A DNA stretch of 64,000 nt, taken from the NCBI GenBank assembly GCA_017405945.1, contig JAFQZL010000003.1:1-64000 (forward strand). Direction: 5' to 3'. Below are positions 6,550 to 48,773 of this stretch, piece by piece (positions within the stretch are counted from its first letter, which is position 1; every line of letters starts with the position of its first letter). Position numbers and translations under genes: made by a program. The DNA is from Acidaminococcaceae bacterium (GTDB taxonomy: Bacteria; Bacillota; Negativicutes; Acidaminococcales; Acidaminococcaceae). Below the pieces are notes generated by a model. It had not been told where the DNA came from, searched no databases, and was given only the letters and a program-made list of their open reading frames with translations.

Positions 6550-6808
6550 TAACATGAATAATGTGTTAAATGCGAAGAACGGAAATTGGTTTTTGGAAGG
6601 CGTTCAGAGAAAAAGCGGCTGGTGCGAGCTTTTCCCTGCTAAAGACCATCTCGTCCGGGAGCTGTGCCTGTGAAAAAAGTAGCAGGCAACGTCAGCGTGC
6701 GTTAACCGCCCGGCTGCAAAAAGCCGGAACCCAATGAGTGATAAATCAGGGTGGTACCGCGATACTATTCGCCCCTGTCTGGAAACAGGCAGGGGCTTTT
6801 CAATTTTT
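6550..6808 (+). ncRNA. T-box leader of leuCDB (tRNA-Leu sensing)
   Basis: T-box riboswitch between promoter and leuC. Visible parts: AGAGA motif at 6606-6610; apical stem I element GGCTGGTGCGAGC; candidate specifier CTC (Leu) at 6650-6652 followed by G, on the 3' side of stem I; and the T-box sequence AGGGTGGTACCGCG at 6748-6761, whose TGGT pairs with the tRNA acceptor end. The terminator GCCCCTG (6771-6777) / CAGGGGC (6790-6796) plus a T run follows. Uncharged tRNA-Leu would stabilise the antiterminator and allow leuCDB transcription. The class is certain; the specifier position is my reading by eye. Confidence 0.9.
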
Positions 6809-25281: not shown

Positions 25282-25317
25282 GTCTTTCAAATAACAATTA
25301 AATACTGTTTCACCTAA

Positions 25318-25577
25318 AAGCTGTGAAGAGAAAAAGATACAGGATGTATGTGCCAGAGAACCGGTGGAAGGTGCGAACCGGTGACAGCGCCTGTGTGGAT
25401 GACTGGTCTCAGAGCTGCCTGCCTGAAACAACCGTAGGGCAGGACGCAATGCAGCGTTATTGGCAAAGGCCTTGTTGGAGGCTGAGAGGACCGGCGGCAG
25501 CCGGTTGAAAAAGGGTGGTACAGCGTGGTTTTATTTCCTCGCCCCTTGCAGATATATGGGAGTGGGGTTTTTTATTT
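25318..25577 (+). ncRNA. T-box leader of leuA (tRNA-Leu sensing)
   Basis: Visible parts: AGAGA at 25355-25359; apical element GGTGGAAGGTGCGAACC; candidate specifier CTC (Leu) at 25408-25410 followed by A; T-box sequence AGGGTGGTACAGCG at 25512-25525, a variant of the usual GGTACCGCG; and a terminator from GCCCC (25541-25545) to GGGG (25564-25567) with TTTTTT. The next gene is 2-isopropylmalate synthase, which supports leucine as the sensed amino acid. Confidence 0.9.
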
Positions 25578-34073: not shown

Positions 34074-34150
<77 letters not shown>

Positions 34151-34791: not shown

Positions 34792-35736
34792 GTGTTTTAT
34801 GGGAAAAGGCGGGAACCCGTAATGGGACAGTGTTTGAAGTTTGCAGTGATGGCAGCGTGTTTTGCTTTGACCCTCTTTTCTGCTACGGACGCGGTGAACG
34901 CTGCTCCCAAAGCAACCAGGGCCGGGCAGCGTCCTGTAGCGGGCTGGCATCAGAGCGGGAAAGGCGAGGTGTGGCCTCCTGTCGCCGGACGGTATGAACG
35001 GAAAAATGCCAATGGCGTAACCAGCGCCTATATCGATGTAACCGTTCTGCCGGACCAATGGCCGGTGATTACGTTGCATGCCTGCGATTATGGGGGAACA
35101 GATGACGAAAAGGGCAGGGAAGCGTTATCCCGGGCTCCCGCAGTCAGGCTGGGCGGATGGATTGCCGGTACGGCATTCACAGACTATCCTTCGGGCAAAA
35201 AACGCAGCAAGAGCGATGTGATGCCGGTTGAAACAGGACTGGGTGCCCGTTTTGTCGCCGGGGCAGAAACCAATGGCATATACGGCGGAAACGGAATCCG
35301 GGGTCTTTTGGATAATGTTCAGATTAATCTGATGCATGCCGGCGTCACTTCAGAAAAAGACGGGCTGGTGCTGGACTATTTCGGGCATAACGGATTACGG
35401 CTGCCGGATGTCCGGGGCAAATATGTGTTGAAAAAAGGCAGCATGCCCGGGGCTGACGAATTTGCCGCCTGTGCTTTGGTCGGAGCGCTGCCCTTAAAGG
35501 AAACAGATACCGATTTTACTGACAATACATTGCAAATTGTTCCGGAAGCGGTTACGGGCAGCATGATGCCCCGGTATCAATACATCATTGGCAATTACGG
35601 TTTTGCTGTTAAAGTGTTCCGGAACGGTATGCTGCTCCGCACTTTCGTGTTGCCGAAAGATTTAAGCGCTGTATACCGTTTTGACAGAAATGGAGGCGAT
35701 ATTATGATTTACGATATCGATGGCTCTAAAGGATGA
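34792..35736 (+). CDS. secreted protein of unknown function
   Basis: I do not recognise this family. The 314-residue product starts with a signal peptide (n-region YGKRRE, hydrophobic core FAVMAACFALTLFS, probable cleavage at VNA-AP). The mature part begins with a Trp/Gly-rich segment (WPPVAGRYERK) and has alternating hydrophobic strands, suggesting a beta-rich domain. ATG 34792 is taken because the n-region charges lie behind it; ATG 34822 would also give a signal peptide. Neither has a good ribosome binding site. It is the first gene of the exported-protein cluster. Confidence 0.6.
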   Translation: MFYGKRREPVMGQCLKFAVMAACFALTLFSATDAVNAAPKATRAGQRPVAGWHQSGKGEVWPPVAGRYERKNANGVTSAYIDVTVLPDQWPVITLHACDYGGTDDEKGREALSRAPAVRLGGWIAGTAFTDYPSGKKRSKSDVMPVETGLGARFVAGAETNGIYGGNGIRGLLDNVQINLMHAGVTSEKDGLVLDYFGHNGLRLPDVRGKYVLKKGSMPGADEFAACALVGALPLKETDTDFTDNTLQIVPEAVTGSMMPRYQYIIGNYGFAVKVFRNGMLLRTFVLPKDLSAVYRFDRNGGDIMIYDIDGSKG

Positions 35737-35808
35737 GCCGTTAAAACGAATGAAAAAGATTCCGGTTTTATCAGTACGTTTACTATTAATGCATAAAGGA
35801 GGTTTATT

Positions 35809-36522
35809 ATGATCCGGTTAAAAAGAATAATGGTGCTCTGCCTTGCGGCGTTGTTCCTTGTAAACCTGACGGTGTATGCTGCTTTAGCGCCAGATTCATT
35901 TACTTACAAAGTCAGTCAGGATGGTACAGTTATGTCTATACAAACCTGGGAATGCTTTTTAAATACAAATAATCAAAAGTCTGTTCAGCACAATGTGCGC
36001 TTAAAAGACAGCAGCGGCAGGGTAATCTATTCCCGGGATGCGCATACATACGATGGAACTGGAACCAGAGAAGGTACTTATAAATATTACGCCTATTTTC
36101 CTTACAGGATAAATATGGTCAAATGTAATCCCGGCAAGTATACATTAGTGATAAATTGCTGGACTAAATATGGCGTTTCTGCACAAAGAGTAATTCCTTT
36201 TACTTATGGCGGCGCCCCGGTTTTAAAATTCAGTTCTACAAAAGTGATTCGCAACAATAAAGGCGATCTGGTGCAGCGTTTCTCTTTCAGCCGTGCCAAC
36301 GTCAGCGGTAAAATGTTCCATGCCCAGATTTTTAACAGCAGGAACCAGCTTGTACGTTCTTTTAATTTTAGTGCAGGCAATTCTAACCAGCCTATTAGTT
36401 TCAGCTGGAACGGCTGGCCTGGCGGTAATTCGGCAATCCGCTGTCCCAAGGGTGTATATACGGTTAAATACTGGATTGACGGCCTTTCGCCCCGCACAGC
36501 GAACTTCACGCTGGCACTTTAA
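35809..36522 (+). CDS. secreted protein with FlgD/Ig-like beta domains
   Basis: 237 residues. Signal peptide (RLKRIMVLCLAALFLVNL, cleavage near YAA-LA). Two beta-rich halves; the second ends FSWNGWPGGN...CPKGVYTVKYWIDG, the pattern of FlgD-type Ig-like domains seen in surface or periplasmic proteins. No catalytic motif is visible. GGAGG precedes the ATG. It ends 20 bases before the DUF3298 gene, on the same strand, so probably in one operon. Confidence 0.62.
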   Translation: MIRLKRIMVLCLAALFLVNLTVYAALAPDSFTYKVSQDGTVMSIQTWECFLNTNNQKSVQHNVRLKDSSGRVIYSRDAHTYDGTGTREGTYKYYAYFPYRINMVKCNPGKYTLVINCWTKYGVSAQRVIPFTYGGAPVLKFSSTKVIRNNKGDLVQRFSFSRANVSGKMFHAQIFNSRNQLVRSFNFSAGNSNQPISFSWNGWPGGNSAIRCPKGVYTVKYWIDGLSPRTANFTLAL

Positions 36523-36542
36523 GAGAGGGAGGTGGATATCAC

Positions 36543-37895
36543 ATGAAAAAGGAAAAACTGCTGGCTGCTGCGCTGGCAGCAATATGTGCGTTTACGTTTG
36601 CGCCGGCTTTTGATACCGGCATTGCAGAAATGGATCTGTCCCGGCCTGCTTTTGCCCGGGCAAAAGATGCGGCAAACCGGGATGCGTCGCTGCATTCGCT
36701 GCCGCTGGTTACGGGCACGCATTATCTTTCAGACTGGGACGGGCCGTTTGAAATGCTTCGTTCCCACTGGACAGATATCCGTTTTTACGGAAACGCAAAA
36801 GCTCCTGAACAAAAAGTTGCACAGGCGCTGGCTGGTTTCAGCAGGATGAAAAGCGATGACTTTGGGAGAACGCGAAAGCTGATGCTTGCCGATTCCAAAG
36901 CAGACTGGAGCCAGCGGATCAAAGACGGTTCGCCTTATTACGGGCCATACTGGTTTACCGGCGATATTCTGGTACGCCGGTCTGATTCTGCTGCGGTTAG
37001 TTTTTTGGAGGACAAAGGTATATATGCAGGGGGAACGCATGGCAACAGCGAACTCGCGGCAAGAAATTATGACGCCCGTACAGGGAAGGAGTTACAGCTT
37101 TCCGACATATTTGTAAATAAATATACTCTGGCCGAAGCGATAAAAAAGCGGCTGAAGGAAGACTATCCCGACGCAGGCTTTATGGAAAACGGAGGGGCGG
37201 CTGCGGATGAGGCCGTGGACCGGATGATCAAAGAGGATTCGCTGGTCTGGACACTGGAACCATACGGCGTTACGTTCTGGTTCAATCCGTACCGGCTGGG
37301 CGGCACGTATGCAGAGGAAATGTTTGTGACGACGCTGTTCTATTTAGAATCGCCGGAGCTTTTCAAAAGGAATAAAGGAACAGACGCATTTGCCTGGCGC
37401 GCCCTGGAAAGATACTGCATGGATGTCCGCCTGTACACTGCCCTCCGTTTGTCCGGTAAACCCGGCGAAAAACTGACCGTGGGCCGCGATAACGATGGCA
37501 TACAAATTGAATTCCGGGGCGAAGAGTACAGAAACGAACTAGAATTAAGGAATACCGATATCCGTCCGACCCTTGTCAACTGCTCCGATGGCCGGAAATA
37601 TCTGTATGTGGATTACGAAGAGCCTGCCAGCAGATACAGCGCATTGTGTTACAAACTGTATGTGTATGACCTGAACGGGGCGTCGCCCCGGTTTGTGGGT
37701 GTGTATCCGATGACGCGGCTTGCTTCCTCTCTGAAGGATACGGCCAAACGCAGCTGGTATGTGATGAGCGATCCCGAGGATTTTTATATGACGGCTACGA
37801 TGGACAGCAATCTGGTTCCGGGGAAGCGGTTACGCTGCCGTGTCGGCGAAGACGGAGCGCCGGAAGTGCTCGAAGTGGAAGGCGCGAAAGGATAA
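36543..37895 (+). CDS. secreted RsiV/DUF3298-domain protein
   Basis: 450 residues with a signal peptide ending near AFA. Residues about 85-270 match the DUF4163/DUF3298 arrangement known from RsiV, an anti-sigma factor that binds lysozyme: YWFTGDILVRRSDS, then GGTHGNSELAARNYDARTGKELQLSDIF and the ADEAVDRM region. No N-terminal cytoplasmic anti-sigma part exists, so it is a free periplasmic or secreted version. The last ~170 residues are unassigned. GGGAGGTGG precedes the ATG. A lower-similarity relative lies at 12654. Confidence 0.72.
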   Translation: MKKEKLLAAALAAICAFTFAPAFDTGIAEMDLSRPAFARAKDAANRDASLHSLPLVTGTHYLSDWDGPFEMLRSHWTDIRFYGNAKAPEQKVAQALAGFSRMKSDDFGRTRKLMLADSKADWSQRIKDGSPYYGPYWFTGDILVRRSDSAAVSFLEDKGIYAGGTHGNSELAARNYDARTGKELQLSDIFVNKYTLAEAIKKRLKEDYPDAGFMENGGAAADEAVDRMIKEDSLVWTLEPYGVTFWFNPYRLGGTYAEEMFVTTLFYLESPELFKRNKGTDAFAWRALERYCMDVRLYTALRLSGKPGEKLTVGRDNDGIQIEFRGEEYRNELELRNTDIRPTLVNCSDGRKYLYVDYEEPASRYSALCYKLYVYDLNGASPRFVGVYPMTRLASSLKDTAKRSWYVMSDPEDFYMTATMDSNLVPGKRLRCRVGEDGAPEVLEVEGAKG

Positions 37896-37901
37896 TATGA
37901 T

Positions 37902-38357
37902 ATGAAAACGATTAAGATATTGCTTACGGCAATGATTATTTCATTAAGCGTTTTAATGGGCTGCGCATATGCCCGGGAGGACATCGAAGCACAGTGGGAA
38001 AAGAATGTAAAACAGCTGGGGGCTCATGATGAGTTTGTTACCAGCCAGTCAGGGGAGACGCGGACCGGCGTTGTTTATTTTGCGAAATGTCCGTTAAAGG
38101 ATTTTAAAATCCTGTCGCTGAAACTTGAAAAATTCGAAGATAAACCGGTCTTTCTGGCGCAAACCCTGTACACAAAAGAAGTACTGGATCCGGAACGGCC
38201 GCTGTTAGTAAAATTATGTCTGTACGGCTCGGTTCCCAATAACGGGTTTTCCTATACCGATGCCAGGGGAGAGACCCGGTATTATGCCATCAACGCAAGC
38301 GGCAAAGACGGAACCCTGTTACTCATTGATAATATTATAATTAAGTTTGAGAACTAA
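37902..38357 (+). CDS. small predicted lipoprotein
   Basis: 151 residues, unrecognised. Lipoprotein signal with lipobox SVLMGC (Cys about residue 21). The mature part is about 130 residues, alternating charged and hydrophobic, ending in an Ile/Asn-rich strand. It begins 6 bases after the DUF3298 gene, so the two are probably translated together. No sequence link to the CHAT gene can be seen except position. Confidence 0.6.
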   Translation: MKTIKILLTAMIISLSVLMGCAYAREDIEAQWEKNVKQLGAHDEFVTSQSGETRTGVVYFAKCPLKDFKILSLKLEKFEDKPVFLAQTLYTKEVLDPERPLLVKLCLYGSVPNNGFSYTDARGETRYYAINASGKDGTLLLIDNIIIKFEN

Positions 38358-38417
38358 AAGCATACAAATTCTGGATTTTGATGACGTATAATATATTATG
38401 CATAATTAAAACAGGCA

Positions 38418-39884
38418 ATGAAAATGAATAAGATAACACAGTATTTAAATTTTAGAAAATGGCCAAAAGCTAAACAACAGGAGTTTCTGTTTAATATTGT
38501 CCTCGGCATCGGGTTTATGGTTGCCTTTATTTTGCTGCAAAATACAGCGGCGCGCCAGGCAGTGATTAATTCCTGGTTCGATAAGTACATTGCCTGGAGA
38601 TATGAAATAGACAGCAATAAATTTATATTACAAAATGTATTGCCCGGTTTAAAAAAGAGTGATGCAAAAAAAGTTTCAGACAATATTGTGTTTTTGCGTT
38701 TCGACAGGCAGGCATTTAAGGCATTGGGACGCCCTGTTATTACGCCGCGGGATAAAGTGGCTGACCTGGTTAATATTGCCTATAAGGGCGGTGCCAAAGT
38801 TATCTATCTGGACATGCTGTTTTCCGAACGCGATTACTCTCCCGCCCCGGCGAAGCCGTTGGCGGGCGATGTTACAGCAAAAGACGGAGTAAGCAGGGAC
38901 AGGACATTGGAGGATTTACTCAATGAGATAAAGAACGATGCCGGGTCGCAGACAAAGGTTTTGCTTCCGTTTGAAACATATGAAATAGACGGAAAACTGA
39001 AGGATATCATATTCTCATCAAAAGGGGAGTCGATCATTGACAATCGTAAAATATTTGCAGTTACCCCGAAATTTACAAGGGGCAGTGATTCCCGCGCCCG
39101 TTTCTGGCTGCCGTATGAGGGATTAAAAGACCAGGATAATAAAGGAAAAACAGCCGATGTGCTCTGGTCAGTTCCAATGACTGCATTAAGCCTGTTTTAC
39201 GGAGACGGACAGCAGCTTGTAAAACTGAGAGAAGAGATTCTGAAAAGAGACAGATTTAACATTGACGATGCAGAATTCATACTCGGACTGCCGGATCGCG
39301 GCGGGGCCTTTACGTTTTACAGGGAGGACTATAAAAATAATGCTTCCGTCAGGGATTCGGAACATCTGCAATATAACAGGATACAATACACCCTTATGCA
39401 GGATCCGATTGATAAAAGGACTATAAGCAGTGACCATATCGGCAGCTGGATGAGAGACAGTTCCCATATAGATAATGAATATATTGAGTTTAAAGATAAG
39501 ATTGTAATTATCGGAAGAGACGATCCGGACTGTAAAGATTTCCACAATACTCCGGTTGGCGTGATGGCGGGAATGTATGTTCATGCAAACAGTATTGCGA
39601 CAGTCATGGGAGAAACGCAGCCGCATCTTACAACAACCGGCAGGCAGGTATTGGTTGACATGTTATTAATTCTGCTGACCGCCTACGGGTATGCGCTTTT
39701 GCCTTCATATTTAGTTAAATATTTCCTTACGCTTCTGACACTGGTTTTCGTTCCCTGTTCCTTTTTGTATTTTTGTCAGACAAATGAATTTGTTTATATC
39801 AGCTGGGCGTTTGCCAGCATAGGGGCATTGCGCTTATGGCTGTCTGTATTGTTTACCAAAATACAGCAGCGCGCCGGGCGGTGA
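38418..39884 (+). CDS. CHASE2-domain membrane sensor without output domain
   Basis: 488 residues. One N-terminal membrane helix (about 25-45), a large extracytoplasmic CHASE2 domain (about 60-420, with FLRFDRQAFKALGRP, GGAKVIYLDMLF and a C-terminal block FKDKIVIIGRDDPDC...TPVGVMAGMYVHANSI), then three hydrophobic helices (about 425-480). CHASE2 proteins normally carry a kinase, cyclase or similar module after these helices; here the protein stops. Its last codons overlap a 54-base copy of its own N-terminal region in another frame. A -10 TATAAT is at 38388. ATG 38418 or 38424 may start it. Confidence 0.8.
   Translation: MKMNKITQYLNFRKWPKAKQQEFLFNIVLGIGFMVAFILLQNTAARQAVINSWFDKYIAWRYEIDSNKFILQNVLPGLKKSDAKKVSDNIVFLRFDRQAFKALGRPVITPRDKVADLVNIAYKGGAKVIYLDMLFSERDYSPAPAKPLAGDVTAKDGVSRDRTLEDLLNEIKNDAGSQTKVLLPFETYEIDGKLKDIIFSSKGESIIDNRKIFAVTPKFTRGSDSRARFWLPYEGLKDQDNKGKTADVLWSVPMTALSLFYGDGQQLVKLREEILKRDRFNIDDAEFILGLPDRGGAFTFYREDYKNNASVRDSEHLQYNRIQYTLMQDPIDKRTISSDHIGSWMRDSSHIDNEYIEFKDKIVIIGRDDPDCKDFHNTPVGVMAGMYVHANSIATVMGETQPHLTTTGRQVLVDMLLILLTAYGYALLPSYLVKYFLTLLTLVFVPCSFLYFCQTNEFVYISWAFASIGALRLWLSVLFTKIQQRAGR
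38517..38570 (+). repeat. direct repeat copy 1 (N-terminal membrane segment of CHASE2 gene)
   Basis: 54 bases matching 39836-39889 at 42 positions by my count, with 29 of the last 33 identical. Here it encodes MVAFILLQNTAARQAVIN in the CHASE2 frame. Confidence 0.85.
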
Positions 39885-39889
39885 TTCAT
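39836..39889 (+). pseudogene. direct repeat copy 2: remnant of a second CHASE2 gene's N-terminus
   Basis: In the frame starting at 39836 this reads MAVCIVYQNTAARRAVIH, clearly homologous to the first membrane segment of the CHASE2 protein (38517-38570). It overlaps the end of the CHASE2 gene in a different frame, and its frame loses similarity after 39889. It is best explained as what is left of a tandem CHASE2 paralogue after a deletion, fused to the 3' end of the surviving gene. Confidence 0.65.
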
Positions 39890-39982
39890 CAAACGTTTTA
39901 CAGATGCTGTAAAAACTACGTTGTTATATTAAAAAAGTTTTTGTGTTTCATAAATATATTAAAAACGGAGGTGTACGAAATC

Positions 39983-40927
39983 ATGAAGAAACTTAACCTG
40001 AGAACAATCTTTTGTATCCTTGCGGTGATTGCATGTATGACATGCTCCGTTGCTTTTGCGGAAGATGAGGTTGCCGAATTTGTAAACTATGATGATATTG
40101 CGAATGAGGTTAAGATAATACATCCTGAAGGTTTGCAGCCAAAAGGCTCAAAAAGGCTGTTGTATAATGGCGATATAATTATGGGGGATACGCAGAAATT
40201 TTCAATAACATGTAAAGAACATGCGAGGGTGGTAAATTTAGATTCCAATGCCTGCATAATTATATATGAGCCGCCCACGGGGGCATCGCAAATCAGTAAT
40301 GTGGTACTGAATTCGCTGGGGCCGTTTTGTTCCGCTCCGAAAAATGTGGAAGGTTTTGTTTATGGCGGGACCCGCGGACCGGCATCTTCTGCCGCTGGCA
40401 GCAGCCTGAAAAAAGCAGCACAAAGCCTTACGCCCCGGCCGGGCTGGAACGTTACGCTCTTAAAGAATCAGGAAGTGAATTTCGCATGGAAAAATGCAAA
40501 TCATGAGACATTTGCCATTATTGACGGAAAGGGAAATAAAATTTATGAAAAGAATATCAAAAATCTCAATGGCCTGAGCATTGTTCCGGCAGATATTAAA
40601 CTGGAAGCCAATGTTCCGTATTCATGGGGTTATGACGGGGAATATACCGGGTATAAATTTACGGTTCTTGATTCACAGACAGAAACAGAAGTGATGGCGA
40701 AACTTGCGGAACTTGACAAAATGAAGCTGACAGATGAAGAGCGCGTTTCAAGGAAGGCTCTTCTTGTGCAATTGATCAGCGACAGCTTCCCGGATAAAGT
40801 CAATTTGTACTGGCTGAGTTCACAGTGGCTCGGAGAGTTTGATAATCTGGGAACTAATGAGAAACAGGCACAGTATTTGCTGCAGCGGTGCAAAAGACAC
40901 CTGGATCAGGAAATGAATCAAAACTGA
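39983..40927 (+). CDS. periplasmic FecR/DUF928-like protein of the CHAT cluster
   Basis: 314 residues, signal peptide ending near AFA-ED. The first ~110 mature residues resemble a FecR-type beta domain (LYNGDIIMGDTQKFSITCKEHARVV). The second half resembles DUF928/Ig-like proteins found with CHAT genes in cyanobacteria (VNFAWKNANHETFAIID..., a Trp-Gly strand, then helices with DEERVSRKALLVQLI). These matches are by pattern, not search. ATG 39983 has GGAGGTG upstream; an in-frame ATG at 39836 lies in the CHASE2 remnant. The gene ends 72 bases before the CHAT start chosen here. Confidence 0.62.
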   Translation: MKKLNLRTIFCILAVIACMTCSVAFAEDEVAEFVNYDDIANEVKIIHPEGLQPKGSKRLLYNGDIIMGDTQKFSITCKEHARVVNLDSNACIIIYEPPTGASQISNVVLNSLGPFCSAPKNVEGFVYGGTRGPASSAAGSSLKKAAQSLTPRPGWNVTLLKNQEVNFAWKNANHETFAIIDGKGNKIYEKNIKNLNGLSIVPADIKLEANVPYSWGYDGEYTGYKFTVLDSQTETEVMAKLAELDKMKLTDEERVSRKALLVQLISDSFPDKVNLYWLSSQWLGEFDNLGTNEKQAQYLLQRCKRHLDQEMNQN

Positions 40928-40999
40928 TACATGATTTTGCGCAAAAAATGCAGGCCGGGACCAATGTGTTGGAAATATGTTAGAAAGGGGCGTTTGAAA

Positions 41000-43900
41000 T
41001 TGCGTTTTCAGTACGGATTACTCGCGTTTTGTCTGGCTGTTAACATATTGAATGTACCAATGTCTGCTTATGCTGAAACAAAAGACGCGCCGTCAAAAAT
41101 CCGGCAGGAAAATAAAACGCCTGCATCAGAAGCAAACACTGTACAGTCTGACGATATACAACCTGACGAAATAACTGCAATCGGGAAGGCCCTTGAAGCA
41201 AAATCAAAGTTCTATAAAGATGTCAGTCCTTTTTTTGATTTACAACCTTTGCCCCGTTATTTACGTGATGGTAAAAAACAAATGCAAAAGTATGATGTAA
41301 ATACTGATAAGGGTATTAAGGAGTATGTAAATCACAGGCACGCGGAATATGAGAAGAAAGTTAAAAATCCTGTTCAGGCAAAAGCCATAAAGCTGAAGGC
41401 GGAGGACAGGCTGGACAGTGCTGTTAATGTTAGCCGGACAGCGTTTTTAAAGCTTGTGAAGGATTTAGAAAAAATATACAGTAATAAAAATCATTCATTA
41501 ATTCTGGCTGTAGAATCTTTACCTGGTGTTTTTAATATGGGTGTGCCTGAACATACCTTTATACAAGATCTTTTAGAACGTATAGAAAAGACAAAATACG
41601 GCGATGGCTTCCGGGACTACGGGTTAAGGCACGCTTCCGAGGATTTAACACAAATCATGCGTGCGGCTTTTGCGGAAAACGAGAAAAATTATTATTTAAA
41701 TAGTTTTAACGATTTAGAAAAAATGACGGAGGGCGTAAAACCTGAAACGTATGAAGATGAACTCCGACAAATGTTAAATATTATGTTTCGGGCTTTGGAA
41801 CAGGAAAATAATATAAACTTAAAAGCATTCCGGATTAAAAACCAGATAAACCTTCTGCAAAAGTTTTTTCCTGACAGAAAAGCGGATATATTGAAACGGG
41901 AAATCATGCTGGCAGATTGTTACAGTATTCTGGGTGAAAATGCCCGGGCAATCTCTGAAAGTAAAAGATTATTACCTTTAGTTCAGGACAGATTCGGAAA
42001 AGCAAGTGACGAAGCACTGTCCCTGATGGATATTTTGGGAAGAGAATATGAAGTCGCGGGAAAATATCATGACAGTGAAAGAATCATTACGGAAATGACA
42101 GAGATCCGGTCAGCAAAATACGGTACGGATTCCCCACAGGCGCTCTCCGGTTTGAATGCGATGGCCCGTATATATATTAAATTGGGAAACTATAATGAAG
42201 CGGGGGCATTATTAGGGAAAATTAATCCTGTCGCAAAACGGGTATTGCCGAAAGAAGATCCGGTCAGAAGTGACATTGGTCTTTCTCAATATATATTTAC
42301 TAAATTAATATTGAAGGATGACAATGATAAATTTGATCTCAGTTCTCTGCTGGTAAACGGAAATGGAACAGCAGCCGCGTTACGCAGGTTGAATACAGAC
42401 CGCGCGTTTGAACGATGGTTTAAAATGAATAACCTTTTGGGACTGGCCCTGAAATATGATTTGAAATCAGTTGCCGTGTGTATGGAAAAGTTCGGCGATA
42501 CCCATCATGTAACGCTAAGTACGTTGTGCGATCTCTGTAACACATATTTAAAACTTAATTGCCTGGAAGATTCGCTGGAATTAGCTGCTATTGTATTGCA
42601 AAAAAGCCGTGGGCGTTACGGTGAGATGCACCCGTGTACTGTGAACGCGTTACATACGCTGGCTGATGCGTACAGGGGATCGGGCAAAACTAAAGAAGCA
42701 AAGGAACTGGACGAACAGGCCCTGACTGTTTGCGGGACAGTGTTTGGCAATAATTCACTGGAAGAACTGGATGCCCGGGCAAGGTTAGCGCAGGACTATT
42801 GCCGGGAAAAGAAATTTGATCCGGCCATAAGTATATATGAAGAAGTAGTCCGTTCTTATAAAAGCCATGGAACTGACAACGCAAAGCTGTGGGACCTGAT
42901 GATAAATCTGGCGGAAGCATATGAATTAAACGGTGAGTATGCAAAAGCAATCAGTGTATGTGATGAGGTCAGCAGGTATAGCCCGGATCATTTTAAAATG
43001 GGGCAGCTCAATCAGGATCATATAAAAGCGGTGCATATTCTGGCCAGTTCATACAGGAATTCAGGCCAGACAGAATTTGCTATAGATAAATACATAGAAA
43101 TGCTGCAGGCGCTTGAAAAAGTCCGGCAAATTGATATTAAGAGAGATGAAAAACTTTCGCAATGGTTTGTTACCATGGTTCCCGCTTACAGAGAACTGGC
43201 CTCTGTATATCTCGCAGATGAACGTAAAGGAACTGAAATATTAAAACTGATGGATCTTTGCAAGGCGAGGATCCTGACAGAACGGTATCATGAACAGATG
43301 ATGCTGCACGCAGACGGAATCAGTGATGAAGAGCAAAAAGAGGTGGATGACCTTTTAAAAACCATACGGATTCATGACAGAGAGATGGAAACGGCTAAAC
43401 AAGACGGAGATCATGATTTCTACTTAAGTTTAACCGTTTCCAAAATGAGGCAGCTTGATAAATATTGGCGCTGTATAGCCGGTTTAAATGAGAAACACCC
43501 TGAAGTCATACGTTTTGGCGGTTTCAGTTTAACGAACAATTCGGATATCCTGCAAAAACTCCAGGCCATTCCCCGGGATGCCTGTTTCATTGACTTTACC
43601 GTGTTGCGGGAGAATAATCCGGATAACCTGCTTCTGGCCTGCATTGCCGGTCGTGACGGAACCGTTAAAGCGGTTCCGGTACCGGTTGATAAAAGCTTTT
43701 TTGATACCTGTCACATTTATCACGAAATACTTTCGTATCCCTCTCTTGAGCATATGCAGGGGGAAGATAAATATCTGTGGAAAAGGCAGGACGGAAGTTA
43801 CAAAATTGTAACGGATAACGAATATAAAGAGCCGGGCGCAAGCCGCGTCAGAACTGCGGAACAGTTTGAAAATGCGCGGCGGGAGTTAGCTGCCAGGATA

Positions 43901-44863
43901 AGCAAAAGCCTGATCGCGCCGGTGAAAGACGTGATACCGGCATCTGCATCCAGATGGATCATCTCTCCCGACGGGGCGTTGAACAACGTACCGTTTGAAA
44001 CGCTTGTATACAATGGAAAAGCACTTATTGATTCGAAAGATGTCAGTTACGTCCCGTCTTTATCCGTGCTGAAGATGATGCAGGACCTTGCGGCGGGACG
44101 GTCCCAGACAGCAGACCGTAAAGAACTGTTTGCGATGGGCTGCCCTGATTACGGCGGCTTTGCATCTGCCAAAAAGCGCAGCAGTATGCAGAATCTGGAA
44201 ACGTCTGTGCAGGCGGGTCATCCGAAAGGAAATTCCGGCATGGTAGCGCCGGATATCCTGTCTGAGTTGAAATGGAATGACCTTCCCGGAACCGGGAAAG
44301 AACTAAACGGAGTCTCCACGTTGTTTGCAAAAGACAGGCAAATTACTTTCAAGGGAAAAAATGCTTCCGAAAGTAATTTAAAATCCTTAGATAAAAAAGG
44401 AGAACTTGGAAAATATAAGTATCTTTTGTTTGCAACCCACGGGCTGTTCGTACCGGAATATCCGGAATTCAGCTCTATTGTATTAAGCCAGGACGCGGCG
44501 CAGAAGAATAAAGGATTCGGGAACGACGGTTACGTTACTGTCGGCGAATGGATGGGGTACAAACTCAACAGTGATTTAGTCTATCTGTCGGCGTGTGAAT
44601 CCGGGCGCGGGAAATACCAGGTTGGTGAAGGTATCGTTGGCATACCGTACGCGCTGACCCTGGCAGGCAACCAGAATACGGTGATGAGCCTGTGGAAGGT
44701 GGAAGACGAATCCACGGCAGAATTTTCAAAGGCGTTTTTTGAAAAACTGAGCCGGGGCGTGCCGCAGGTGAAAGCGTTAAACGATACGAAACGGGAATTT
44801 TTGCGACACAAGAGGTTCAGCAGCCCGTCAGTGTGGTCGGCGTTTCTGTTGTATGGGATTTAG
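41000..44863 (+). CDS. secreted TPR-CHAT caspase-like peptidase
   Basis: About 1287 residues. A signal peptide (RFQYGLLAFCLAVNILNVP, cleavage near AYA-ET) sends it out of the cytoplasm. The middle (about 270-870) is helical with TPR-like repeats. The C-terminal ~350 residues are a CHAT domain: ISPDGALNNVPFETLVY, catalytic His1147 in LFATHGLF, catalytic Cys1199 in LSACESGRG, and NTVMSLWKVED...FYEKL-like helices to the end. TTG 41000 is chosen (AGAAAGGGG upstream, compact signal peptide); ATG 40931 is in frame but lacks a binding site. CHAT peptidases cut proteins in defence and regulation; a periplasmic one is unusual. Substrate unknown. Confidence 0.85.
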   Translation: MRFQYGLLAFCLAVNILNVPMSAYAETKDAPSKIRQENKTPASEANTVQSDDIQPDEITAIGKALEAKSKFYKDVSPFFDLQPLPRYLRDGKKQMQKYDVNTDKGIKEYVNHRHAEYEKKVKNPVQAKAIKLKAEDRLDSAVNVSRTAFLKLVKDLEKIYSNKNHSLILAVESLPGVFNMGVPEHTFIQDLLERIEKTKYGDGFRDYGLRHASEDLTQIMRAAFAENEKNYYLNSFNDLEKMTEGVKPETYEDELRQMLNIMFRALEQENNINLKAFRIKNQINLLQKFFPDRKADILKREIMLADCYSILGENARAISESKRLLPLVQDRFGKASDEALSLMDILGREYEVAGKYHDSERIITEMTEIRSAKYGTDSPQALSGLNAMARIYIKLGNYNEAGALLGKINPVAKRVLPKEDPVRSDIGLSQYIFTKLILKDDNDKFDLSSLLVNGNGTAAALRRLNTDRAFERWFKMNNLLGLALKYDLKSVAVCMEKFGDTHHVTLSTLCDLCNTYLKLNCLEDSLELAAIVLQKSRGRYGEMHPCTVNALHTLADAYRGSGKTKEAKELDEQALTVCGTVFGNNSLEELDARARLAQDYCREKKFDPAISIYEEVVRSYKSHGTDNAKLWDLMINLAEAYELNGEYAKAISVCDEVSRYSPDHFKMGQLNQDHIKAVHILASSYRNSGQTEFAIDKYIEMLQALEKVRQIDIKRDEKLSQWFVTMVPAYRELASVYLADERKGTEILKLMDLCKARILTERYHEQMMLHADGISDEEQKEVDDLLKTIRIHDREMETAKQDGDHDFYLSLTVSKMRQLDKYWRCIAGLNEKHPEVIRFGGFSLTNNSDILQKLQAIPRDACFIDFTVLRENNPDNLLLACIAGRDGTVKAVPVPVDKSFFDTCHIYHEILSYPSLEHMQGEDKYLWKRQDGSYKIVTDNEYKEPGASRVRTAEQFENARRELAARISKSLIAPVKDVIPASASRWIISPDGALNNVPFETLVYNGKALIDSKDVSYVPSLSVLKMMQDLAAGRSQTADRKELFAMGCPDYGGFASAKKRSSMQNLETSVQAGHPKGNSGMVAPDILSELKWNDLPGTGKELNGVSTLFAKDRQITFKGKNASESNLKSLDKKGELGKYKYLLFATHGLFVPEYPEFSSIVLSQDAAQKNKGFGNDGYVTVGEWMGYKLNSDLVYLSACESGRGKYQVGEGIVGIPYALTLAGNQNTVMSLWKVEDESTAEFSKAFFEKLSRGVPQVKALNDTKREFLRHKRFSSPSVWSAFLLYGI

Positions 44864-45013
44864 GGAATTCCGTTTCCGGTACTGTAAACGCTTTAACAAA
44901 AAATCTGCTTAACGCCATATAAAATACAAAATTTTTATGCTTTTAATACCCATACTTAATTATTACCCAAACTTCGCATCTTTCAAAGCGTATATGCACG
45001 GGAGGCTATTGTT

Positions 45014-45760
45014 ATGAGGGAAAAGATATATCAGATTATCAAGTCTCCTACAGAAGGTAACAGTGAAACGACGTTATATGACTATTTTATGATGATAGTC
45101 ATCACTCTCAGCCTGTTACCTTTAACATACAAACCTGAAGCAGAACCATACTGGGTCATGTATGTGGAGCACATCACAGTTTCTGTTTTTATTTCCGATT
45201 ATATTTTTCGGTGGTTTGTTGCTGATTATGAGTATCCGGATTTAAAATTCCCGTTTTTGCAGTATGCATATCAACCGATGGCCATTATTGATTTACTGTC
45301 TATATTGCCGGGCATACTGGTAAGTATCACTTATCATAATCCGGAATTCATGACATTGATGCTGCTTCGGCTGGCCAGGCTTGCCAGGGTGCTCCGGTCG
45401 TTGAAAATCCTGGAGTATTCCCACAGCTTCCGGGTAATGAGAGCGGTTATCAGGAACAGTATCAGACCCTTAAAAGCAGTATTGGCTTTTGCTGTTACAT
45501 ATATCATAATTTCTTCCCTGATTATTTTTCATATTGAACCGGGTTTTAAAGATTTCTTTGAAGCATTGTACTGGGCGACAGTTTCTCTTACTACGGTGGG
45601 GTATGGTGATATTGTTCCAACCACTACGTACGGCAGGATTGTGACCATGGTCTCTTCTGTCATAGGTATTGCTGTTATAGCTTTGCCATCAGGTATAGTT
45701 ACTGCCGGTTATATGAAAGCTCTTGAAGAAGAAGAAGAGAGAAATAAGGGTTTAAAGTAG
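45014..45760 (+). CDS. voltage-gated potassium channel (Kv type)
   Basis: 248-residue six-helix channel subunit. S1-S3 lie at about 25-115, S4 is LRLARLARVLRSLKIL with regularly spaced Arg, and the pore helix and filter TVGYGD lie at 194-199, followed by S6. There is no cytoplasmic RCK or cyclic-nucleotide domain. CGGGAGG precedes the ATG. It follows the CHAT gene by 150 bases with no terminator seen between, so co-transcription is possible. It may simply be a neighbour. Confidence 0.9.
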   Translation: MREKIYQIIKSPTEGNSETTLYDYFMMIVITLSLLPLTYKPEAEPYWVMYVEHITVSVFISDYIFRWFVADYEYPDLKFPFLQYAYQPMAIIDLLSILPGILVSITYHNPEFMTLMLLRLARLARVLRSLKILEYSHSFRVMRAVIRNSIRPLKAVLAFAVTYIIISSLIIFHIEPGFKDFFEALYWATVSLTTVGYGDIVPTTTYGRIVTMVSSVIGIAVIALPSGIVTAGYMKALEEEEERNKGLK

Positions 45761-46517: not shown

Positions 46518-46632
46518 ACTTACAGTAACTGCCTGCACTAACTGCCATTTTGCGCGTTCCGCACCGCATTTTCATCCTCTTTCGGATAGCACATCGTGCA
46601 CGAAACATTCCGCGGGTTTATTGTGCAGATTG
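46518..46632 (-). pseudogene. remnant of a deleted Fe3+-type ABC transporter ATPase gene
   Basis: Minus-strand debris homologous to the intact ATPase gene at 49007-50116. Block 1 (46536-46590) matches its last codons, reading CYPKEDEN against WYPEEDES, with a 1-base deletion and a short tandem duplication near the stop. Block 2 (46596-46632) matches 49385-49421 at 30 of 37 bases and reads NLHNKPAECFVH against NLYNKPVNRFVH. About 300 bases between the blocks are missing. It lies beside a terminator of the same kind as the intact copy, so a whole paralogous operon end was once here. Confidence 0.8.
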
Positions 46633-46669
46633 TAAACCTTAAAATGTGTAATGATAACAACAGCAATGC

Positions 46670-46698
46670 TTGCTTTTTTGTATTAAAAGTGCTAGAAT
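46670..46698 (+). promoter_or_regulatory. promoter of the EAL-PAS gene
   Basis: TTGCTT (46670-46675), 17-base spacer, TAGAAT (46693-46698), about 75 bases before the start codon. Confidence 0.7.
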
Positions 46699-46778
46699 CA
46701 ATCTTATCATACTGTGCAATTGTTCTTTTGGCGCAGATAATTGCCGGATTAACAGATTTTGTTTTTGGGGGGGATGTA

Positions 46779-48773
46779 ATGAAACGTATGACAGAGATGG
46801 AAGTCGTCCGCTTCTTTGAACAGGCGATAAGTGACAGGCAGCTTTGTGTTCACTATCAGCCGCAATATAATCATTCCACCGGTAGGATTGTAGGCGCGGA
46901 GGCGCTGATGCGGTGGAACCATCCGGAATACGGGCCCCAGTCCCCGGCGGATTTTATTCCGGCTATGGAAAAATATGAATTGATCTGTCGCGCAGATTTG
47001 TATGTCTTTGAACAAATCTGCCGTTTTCAGAGCAGCTGTCCTTCCTCTGAGCGGATTCCGATTTCATTTAACGTTTCCAGACACGACCTCCTCGAGCACG
47101 ATTATGTGGGCAGGCTGGAGACGATCCGCAAAGAATACAATGTTCCCGTGCAATATCTGCGGGTAGAAATCACGGAGTCCTCTGCCGACGGAGGGTTTGA
47201 CCTGGTCGCCACGGCAATAAACCGGTTCCATGAGGCAGGATACATTGTGGAGATGGATGATTTCGGAAGCGGTTATTCCTCTCTTGGCATACTGAAAAGT
47301 CTGCCGGTAGATGTTTTAAAGCTTGACATGAGTTTTTTAGCCGGAGAGGGTTCCGGCGGTCAGGGGGGAATCATTCTCAATTCCGTCATACAGATGGCGA
47401 AATGGCTGGAGACCCAGACGATTGCGGAAGGTGTGGAAACCGTAGAACAGGCAGATTTTCTGAAGAGCGTCGGATGCAATTATGTACAGGGATACCTGTA
47501 CTCAAGGCCGATCCCCGAAGAGGAAATGAGCCGGCTTTTGTCAGCTGTCGATTCCGAAATAACAGAACCGGCGCTTAAGTTTGTCCGGGGATTAAAGGCA
47601 AAACAGTTCTGGGACCCGGATTCCACAGAAACTGTTTTCTTTAACAGCTTTACCGGGCCGGCGGCTGTGTTCAGCTACGAGGACGGGGATATGGAGATTC
47701 TGCGTGTCAATGAGAAATATGTCAGGGAACTTGGCATGAACCTGACGGAAAAGGAAATCCTTGCTTCAAATCCTCTGGATACCATGAATCCGGCCAACCG
47801 GAAAATTTATCTTAATACCGTGAAGAACGCCATCGGGTCCGGAGAGGAAGAAAGCTGTGAAACATGGCGGTCGATCCGTTCAGGCTGCTGCGGGGAGGAA
47901 AGAATCTGCATCCGCAGCCATATCCGCGTAATCGGAAAAGCAGAAAATCAGGCTACTGTCTATGCCAACATCCATAATGTTACCTGCGAAAAAAAGCAAT
48001 ATGAGGAGCTGGCTGAAAGTGAGCGCCGGTTCCGTTTTGCCAGTGAACAGGCAAATATTTATGCCTGGGAATATACGGTGGACACACAGGAAATGCGTCC
48101 ATGCTTCCGTTGTATCAGGGACCTGGGGTTCCCGCATCTTGTGCGGAATTATCCGGAACCGGCCATTAAAGCCGGGATCATCCCGCCGGATTACGCAGAT
48201 ATGTACAGGGACTGGCATAAGCAGATTGCTGCAGGTGTAAAGAAGCTGGAGGCAATCATCCCCATGACAGTGGGGCGGGTACCTTTCCATGTCCGGTATA
48301 CCACGGTATTTGATGAAACCGGAAAACCTCTGAAAGCATATGGGTCTGCGACGATGGTAGACGATGAAAAACTGTGGAACGACGGCAGGGTTCATACTCA
48401 CATCGCCCAGGCCCTGGCCCGTGGCTATACGGATTTGTATTACGTTAATATGGACACCGGTGAATATATCGAATACCATACAGATGCCGGGCACAGCGTG
48501 CTCGACGAGGCGAAGCGGGGTACGAATTTCTTTCAGGACCGTCAGCGGGATGCGGAACGGAACGTATATCCGGAGGACCGGGTTGCTTATGTAAAGGCTG
48601 TGAACAGTTTCTTCCTCAGGGAAACGCTGAATGAAAACAAGTTGTTTAAACTGACCTACCGCAAAGTGAAAGCAGGGGTTCCTTTCTACGTGCTGATGAA
48701 TATCTCCCGCATGGAGGACGACGACCGTTTTCTTGTCATCGCGGTGAAGGATATCGATGCGATGATGAGTTAG
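46779..48773 (+). CDS. EAL-domain c-di-GMP phosphodiesterase with C-terminal PAS region
   Basis: 664 residues. The EAL domain comes first: YQPQYNHSTGRIVGAEALMRW (EAL at 41-43), VEITESS, DDFGSGYSSL, KLDMSFL, IAEGVET and VQGYLYSRPIP. The metal and catalytic residues look intact, so it should hydrolyse c-di-GMP. Residues about 270-400 and 420-560 look like PAS domains (with CEKKQYEELAESERRFRFA between them); the last ~100 are also PAS-like. There is no GGDEF domain and no membrane segment. ATG 46779 has GGGGGGG upstream; a longer frame to 46596 would run through the ATPase remnant. Confidence 0.87.
   Translation: MKRMTEMEVVRFFEQAISDRQLCVHYQPQYNHSTGRIVGAEALMRWNHPEYGPQSPADFIPAMEKYELICRADLYVFEQICRFQSSCPSSERIPISFNVSRHDLLEHDYVGRLETIRKEYNVPVQYLRVEITESSADGGFDLVATAINRFHEAGYIVEMDDFGSGYSSLGILKSLPVDVLKLDMSFLAGEGSGGQGGIILNSVIQMAKWLETQTIAEGVETVEQADFLKSVGCNYVQGYLYSRPIPEEEMSRLLSAVDSEITEPALKFVRGLKAKQFWDPDSTETVFFNSFTGPAAVFSYEDGDMEILRVNEKYVRELGMNLTEKEILASNPLDTMNPANRKIYLNTVKNAIGSGEEESCETWRSIRSGCCGEERICIRSHIRVIGKAENQATVYANIHNVTCEKKQYEELAESERRFRFASEQANIYAWEYTVDTQEMRPCFRCIRDLGFPHLVRNYPEPAIKAGIIPPDYADMYRDWHKQIAAGVKKLEAIIPMTVGRVPFHVRYTTVFDETGKPLKAYGSATMVDDEKLWNDGRVHTHIAQALARGYTDLYYVNMDTGEYIEYHTDAGHSVLDEAKRGTNFFQDRQRDAERNVYPEDRVAYVKAVNSFFLRETLNENKLFKLTYRKVKAGVPFYVLMNISRMEDDDRFLVIAVKDIDAMMS

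Follow-up and report, generated by a model that had tools for sequence, protein, structure and literature searches.

Three neighbouring genes of a rumen bacterium, a Succiniclasticum species (Acidaminococcaceae) whose closest named relative in our search was S. ruminis DSM 9236, encode a CHASE2 membrane protein, a secreted adaptor and a predicted secreted TPR-CHAT caspase-like peptidase, and we are highly confident that this triad is a functional unit. The best explanation overall, on which we would place an even bet, is a three-gene extracytoplasmic module composed of a sensor, an adaptor and a peptidase. The genes lie in the window, by which we mean the whole stretch of 64,000 nucleotides that was analysed, and the features of the locus are the following.

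34074 to 34150, plus strand: tRNA-Arg(ACG), the left border of the variable segment carrying the triad
38418 to 39884, plus strand: CHASE2 membrane protein, 488 aa (Pfam CHASE2, E 2.8e-20)
39983 to 40927, plus strand: secreted adaptor, 314 aa (from the translation; no Pfam family)
40994 to 44863, plus strand: secreted TPR-CHAT caspase-like peptidase (predicted), ~1289 aa (CHAT E 1.3e-53, TPR repeats)
38337 to 38391, plus strand: left copy of an imperfect inverted repeat, in the 3' end of gene D and the spacer after it
44909 to 44963, minus strand: right copy of the same repeat, in the CHAT-Kv spacer

Inspection of positions 34792-45760 revealed eight plus-strand ORFs in a row, as the first-pass annotation of this DNA had described, in the order of secreted-protein genes A-D, CHASE2, adaptor, TPR-CHAT and a Kv-type channel gene 3' of CHAT. 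Pfam agreed with its CHASE2, TPR-CHAT and channel (Ion_trans match) assignments, and export-like N-termini were found in every ORF except CHASE2 and the channel, in line with its view that nearly all the products are exported; these signal peptides were assigned by a hydropathy rule, not by a trained predictor. Its names for two upstream genes did not survive: the DUF3298 match (E 0.014) is under the Pfam cut-off, and gene D (37902-38357) is, judging from its sequence, more likely an ordinary secreted protein than a lipoprotein, because the lipobox LMGC of the window is LMGS in S. ruminis, with loss of the Cys. The triad is indeed AT-rich (GC 0.43-0.44, GC3 0.44-0.47) with respect to the mean GC of the window, 0.50, but this property is not specific to it, as B, D and Kv are equally AT-rich and genes A and C have a GC of 0.53. 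Two T-box leaders are also present in the window, at 6566-6779 and 25314-25549.

The same annotation had proposed a module of seven genes, and comparison with S. ruminis points to a smaller unit. A block corresponding to 38417-44925 (6509 bp, 94.8% identity) is inverted in S. ruminis between flanks that are collinear with the window, and with breakpoints at 38379/38417 and 44925/44983 it contains exactly CHASE2, adaptor and CHAT; its three genes thus run opposite to D, C, A and Kv, the last of which also lies elsewhere in the S. ruminis locus. Elsewhere in the genus, homologues of gene C are multi-copy (12 of 14 genomes), in G045 and G050 genes B and C are close to a 144-aa gene with no triad alongside, and Kv is present in 3 of 14 genomes, one of which lacks CHAT. 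Since the triad inverts as a block while the four upstream genes and Kv move or occur independently, we take the unit to be three genes; the order is kept for the triad and is not kept for the upstream genes and the channel. An acquired seven-gene module that includes these neighbours as parts could draw on the single strand and the short gaps seen in the window, but it is ruled out by the inversion in the sister genome, and with B, C and the 144-aa gene travelling on their own we give it practically no chance. The imperfect inverted repeat that bounds the triad in the window scores 53 in local alignment, where shuffled sequences reached at most 32, and no such pair was found around the triad of S. 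ruminis. Because one arm of the repeat consists of coding sequence from the 3' end of gene D, we infer an inverted duplication at the inversion breakpoint, produced by staggered breaks, and the all-one-strand arrangement of the window would then be the derived one. The appearance of a seven-gene operon looks partly accidental, the outcome of rearrangement in the lineage of the window.

Acquisition of the locus, also suggested previously, is supported by the patchy distribution, 2 of 59 genomes of the family, and by the variable site behind the tRNA-Arg(ACG), the adjacency of which was confirmed. The DNA behind this tRNA is unrelated in most members of the genus and is shared only within two pairs, the window with S. 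ruminis and one other. In G048 the same borders (phosphoesterase-tRNA-Arg on one side and an ABC transporter on the other) flank HEPN/MNT genes and an EAL gene, in G050 a phage integrase follows the tRNA, and in G045 the site holds ZorA/ZorB/ZorE-like genes that are Zorya type II-like (L104 7033-10750). The segment is a variable and probably an integrative site; a search of the window for an att duplication, a second copy of the 3' end of tRNA-Arg, found none. Further along the window, an EAL gene (46596-48773) is flanked by near-identical direct repeats (46446-46491/48870-48915 and 46536-46562/49010-49036); S. ruminis lacks the gene at this site, a clean gain or loss via recombination.

Among 380 Negativicutes genomes searched, a full-length CHAT was found in 8, from four families, and in 8 of 8 it is accompanied by CHASE2 and the adaptor, in an order that varies. 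This co-conservation as a unit, like the identity of the genes, is a direct observation. The orders are CHASE2-adaptor-CHAT, to which G170 adds a gene for a 173-aa secreted protein in front of CHAT, and CHASE2-CHAT-adaptor in G178; in G188 two contig ends each carry a part of the CHAT gene. As a negative control, genomes with both families in a Bacillota sample from outside the Negativicutes had them on separate contigs or 400 kb apart. Plasmids were searched with the CHASE2 domain of a Negativicutes cyclase-type protein as bait, as tblastn of the window CHASE2 against them returned no match, and the cyanobacterial sample consists of plasmids only. An exported-looking TPR-CHAT and a DUF928 gene are adjacent in 4 of 4 cyanobacterial CHASE2 loci, from Gloeothece (including G. 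citriformis PCC 7424 and G. verrucosa, the latter with a short, weak DUF928 match), Calothrix and Kovacikia; the cyanobacterial clusters of CHAT, DUF928 and CHASE2 to which the first-pass annotation had pointed were in this way seen directly. The CHASE2 locus of a Variovorax plasmid is an ordinary response regulator-FecR-CHASE2 set. To our knowledge, the bacterial CHAT or caspase-like peptidases that are understood act inside the cell, Craspase being the best studied. The occurrence of the threesome in distantly related bacteria suggests a protease switch located outside the cytoplasm, not inside it.

The CHASE2 protein displays one N-terminal TM, an extracytoplasmic CHASE2 domain, three C-terminal TMs and a short tail. 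TMs were placed by hydropathy at 22-40, 411-429 and 432-450, and the AF2 model, of low confidence (mean pLDDT 58), has helices at 17-39, 407-427, 430-455 and 464-486; a PDB sequence search with CHASE2 gave no match. No cytoplasmic output domain was found in five Negativicutes CHASE2s (window, S. ruminis and three of Selenomonas type), which end after TM4. In G069 and G295 a DUF4062-nSTAND1 protein ends in the CHASE2 ectodomain, and the last TMs are missing.

L054, 10742 to 13792: DUF4062-nSTAND1-TM-CHASE2 fusion (STAND NTPase with an extracytoplasmic sensor domain)
L055, 5315 to 8389: a second fusion of the same architecture

A STAND NTPase, present in these two relatives, was not found in the window locus by Pfam, and three of the cyanobacterial proteins have histidine-kinase-type domains after CHASE2. 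The cytoplasmic part therefore varies between a histidine kinase, a DUF4062-STAND NTPase and none, while the exported parts stay, which would place the functional core of the triad outside the cytoplasm. As the window CHASE2 is devoid of an output domain, the output of the window triad is likely to be its only predicted catalytic part, the periplasmic peptidase. A 66-nt direct repeat (38505-38570/39824-39889), whose first copy encodes part of the first TM and whose second copy falls, in a different frame, at the 3' end of the CHASE2 gene, is also found in S. ruminis and is perhaps the relic of a second CHASE2 copy. The Selenomonas-type genomes L061 and L062 carry another CHASE2 set, consisting of a secreted protein, a CHASE2-cyclase, a metallo-beta-lactamase-fold protein and a GAF-GGDEF protein, that of L062 being assigned by similarity of order.

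The adaptor has a predicted signal peptide, and its AF2 model (pLDDT 70) shows a beta part at the N-terminus, then an Ig-like domain and a C-terminal helical (TPR-like) domain. Its best PDB match by both methods is MtxA (4z29; Foldseek E 4.8e-4), with a Z of 8.7, just above the common-fold level, over 140 residues, an rmsd of 3.2 and 11% identity; no sequence similarity between the two was detected. The adaptor gene adjoins CHASE2 in seven of the eight Negativicutes loci, with CHAT lying between them in G178. The protein had been labelled FecR/DUF928-like, and its position beside CHASE2 fits this label, but its sequence does not. FecR (PF04773) gave no match in any of 8 adaptor members up to E 10, in comparison with E 9.5e-15 for a true FecR beside CHASE2, and no member scored above the cut-off for DUF928 (PF06051), the best E being 0.12, in two members; hhalign against DUF928 returned a probability of 5.8 and only a weak 25-residue match. 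No viral relatives of the adaptor were found, and in a Bacillota sample of 398 it was detected in the window's own genome only.

The CHAT domain (PF12770) of the peptidase scores 182.8 bits against a curated cut-off of 24. Its ORF opens at ATG 40931; the start is probably TTG 40994, to judge from the RBS-like GAAAGGGG just upstream and from S. ruminis, which shares this start and has a CHAT protein of 94% identity, and by the hydropathy rule the signal peptide ends ..NVPMSAYA-ET. The catalytic dyad of H1170 and C1222 (1310-aa numbering) is intact and is invariant in 9 of 9 Negativicutes CHAT copies; in a wider set that includes cyanobacteria and Variovorax the His is retained in 13 of 14 and the Cys in 14 of 14. 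The exception is the CHAT of Gloeothece verrucosa (L117 6152-8272), where Glu replaces the catalytic His, and this protein is probably an inactive relative retained beside CHASE2. N-terminal export-like hydrophobic segments are found in those Negativicutes CHATs whose start is intact and in the four cyanobacterial CHATs, which bears out the earlier claim of an exported, predicted peptidase associated with CHASE2, export being judged by hydropathy. In a PDB search with the CHAT/TPR profile, the 60 matches listed are TPR proteins. Solitary exported-looking CHATs without CHASE2 occur in G069 (L056, its second CHAT) and in Variovorax (L064), thus CHASE2 is not required for every exported CHAT.

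The triad combines export-like N-termini with an intact catalytic dyad and a cytoplasmic output that is lost or swapped. In the mechanism that we propose, CHASE2 would provide the anchor and the sensor on the outer side of the inner membrane, the secreted adaptor with its Ig/TPR-like parts would bind to it, and either the helical domain of the adaptor or the TPRs of the CHAT protein would keep the exported peptidase inactive. An envelope or extracellular cue, perceived by CHASE2 or the adaptor, would free or allosterically activate the Cys/His caspase-like peptidase, which would then cleave an envelope or surface protein. The sensor-protease mechanism suggested in the first-pass annotation is thus plausible. 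A gap of 98 bp between the CHASE2 and adaptor genes counts against the module. We hold this order of sensing, release and cleavage with a little under even confidence; complex formation, autoinhibition, proteolysis, substrate and signal enter it as what we infer for the triad. Substrates of CHAT could be surface proteins, as two relatives have their triads beside Slam-type barrel/TbpB-like genes and two cyanobacterial loci are beside or near FHA genes. On a broader and more doubtful reading, which we nevertheless regard as possible, the triads may represent an undescribed cross-phylum class of extracytoplasmic caspase-like systems, with a constant periplasmic sensor-peptidase core, interchangeable outputs and possibly a function in envelope surveillance (phage or damage).

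Because of the genomic site and the STAND form, the main rival to this explanation is an envelope-anchored defence or conflict system, in which the triad would detect, from the periplasm, the adsorption of a phage, the injection of DNA or damage to the membrane, and CHAT would kill or shut down the cell via cleavage of envelope proteins, the DUF4062-STAND form adding a cytoplasmic arm. The patchy occurrence in the family and the variable tRNA-Arg site, occupied in sister genomes by the Zorya-like, HEPN/MNT and integrase genes, are consistent with such a role; STAND and CHAT are named among the parts of bacterial conflict systems (PMC10907252), and the STAND-CHASE2 protein matches the PADLOC candidate PDC-S60 in its DUF4062 part (E 1.1e-10). 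However, PADLOC returned only a weak CHAT match for the window genes (BovA, E 0.004), the partners of CHASE2 elsewhere are ordinary signalling proteins, and the window triad is ~4 kb from the tRNA amid ordinary secreted-protein genes, and we consider defence unlikely, though a serious contender.

The cytoplasmic outputs that exist in cyanobacteria (kinase) and in G069 and G295 (STAND) would also fit an inward relay, in which the exported CHAT is an upstream switch that trims CHASE2 or the adaptor, the signal then reaching the cell interior through the kinase or STAND NTPase linked to CHASE2, with an unlinked partner being used by the Succiniclasticum/Selenomonas-type CHASE2. That all five output-less Negativicutes CHASE2s, including that of the window, still keep CHAT and adaptor makes a relay of this kind quite improbable. 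It has further to be considered whether the peptidase serves the maturation or shedding of exported surface proteins and not signalling. A Slam-type barrel lies next to the triads of G069 and G295 (PF04575, E 4.6e-19 for the former), and the barrels of L054 and L055 are 42% identical across two Negativicutes families; a TbpB-barrel-like secreted protein is also near both triads, FHA/ShlB genes occur near the G. verrucosa locus and an FHA-like ORF adjoins that of Kovacikia. However, neither the window nor the Selenomonas-type genomes have such an export gene next to their triads, and we see only a slim chance for this explanation.

The extracytoplasmic sensor-adaptor-peptidase module that we prefer is built from parts of known kinds, and its cyanobacterial loci are already annotated in databases; the triad is CHASE2 and secreted-partner signalling with an unusual output. 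Within the literature searched, no paper joins a CHAT domain with CHASE2 or FecR. CHASE2 is a sensor domain with cues still unknown (PMC5192318), and a conserved exported CHAT tied to it would help to establish both what CHASE2 senses and what exported CHATs cut. The simplest form is the output-less one of Succiniclasticum and Selenomonas type, for which three proteins could suffice in a reconstitution.

The cyanobacterial clusters resemble the window in having an exported-looking TPR-CHAT, a small protein (DUF928 in the clusters) and CHASE2 side by side, but their CHASE2 carries a histidine kinase where an output was detected, and DUF928 is unrecognisable in the window adaptor; a CHASE2, DUF928 and WD40 cluster has been noted in NOSP7, where the CHAT domain is not named (PMC5587647). 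In magnetotactic bacteria the gene for MtxA, a secreted Ig and TPR protein, precedes a CHASE2 adenylate cyclase gene (PMC4439547). This operon parallels the triad in placing next to a CHASE2 gene the gene of a protein with a signal peptide, which is of Ig and TPR fold in MtxA and may be so in the adaptor (modelled fold match, Z 8.7); it differs in its adenylate cyclase output, in that no sequence similarity was detected and in that no CHAT is mentioned in the passages on it (PMC4439547). The BiofilmReg operon, with FecR and a CHASE2 histidine kinase (PMC5192318), and a Campylobacterota cluster, with FecR, a CHASE2 cyclase, a PDE and a TPR protein (PMC9239204), likewise pair CHASE2 with a secreted or outer-membrane partner, but this partner is FecR, of which there is none here by Pfam, and no CHAT peptidase has been reported in them. 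Craspase (Csx29) shares with the window CHAT the architecture of TPRs and a CHAT caspase-like domain and works with the RNA-guided Cas7-11 effector (PMC10028731, PMC9729208). No Cas family was found among the proteins scanned at 34.8-48.8 kb and no CRISPR RNA family in the window, and unlike Craspase, the window CHAT is exported, as judged by hydropathy, and is encoded beside CHASE2.
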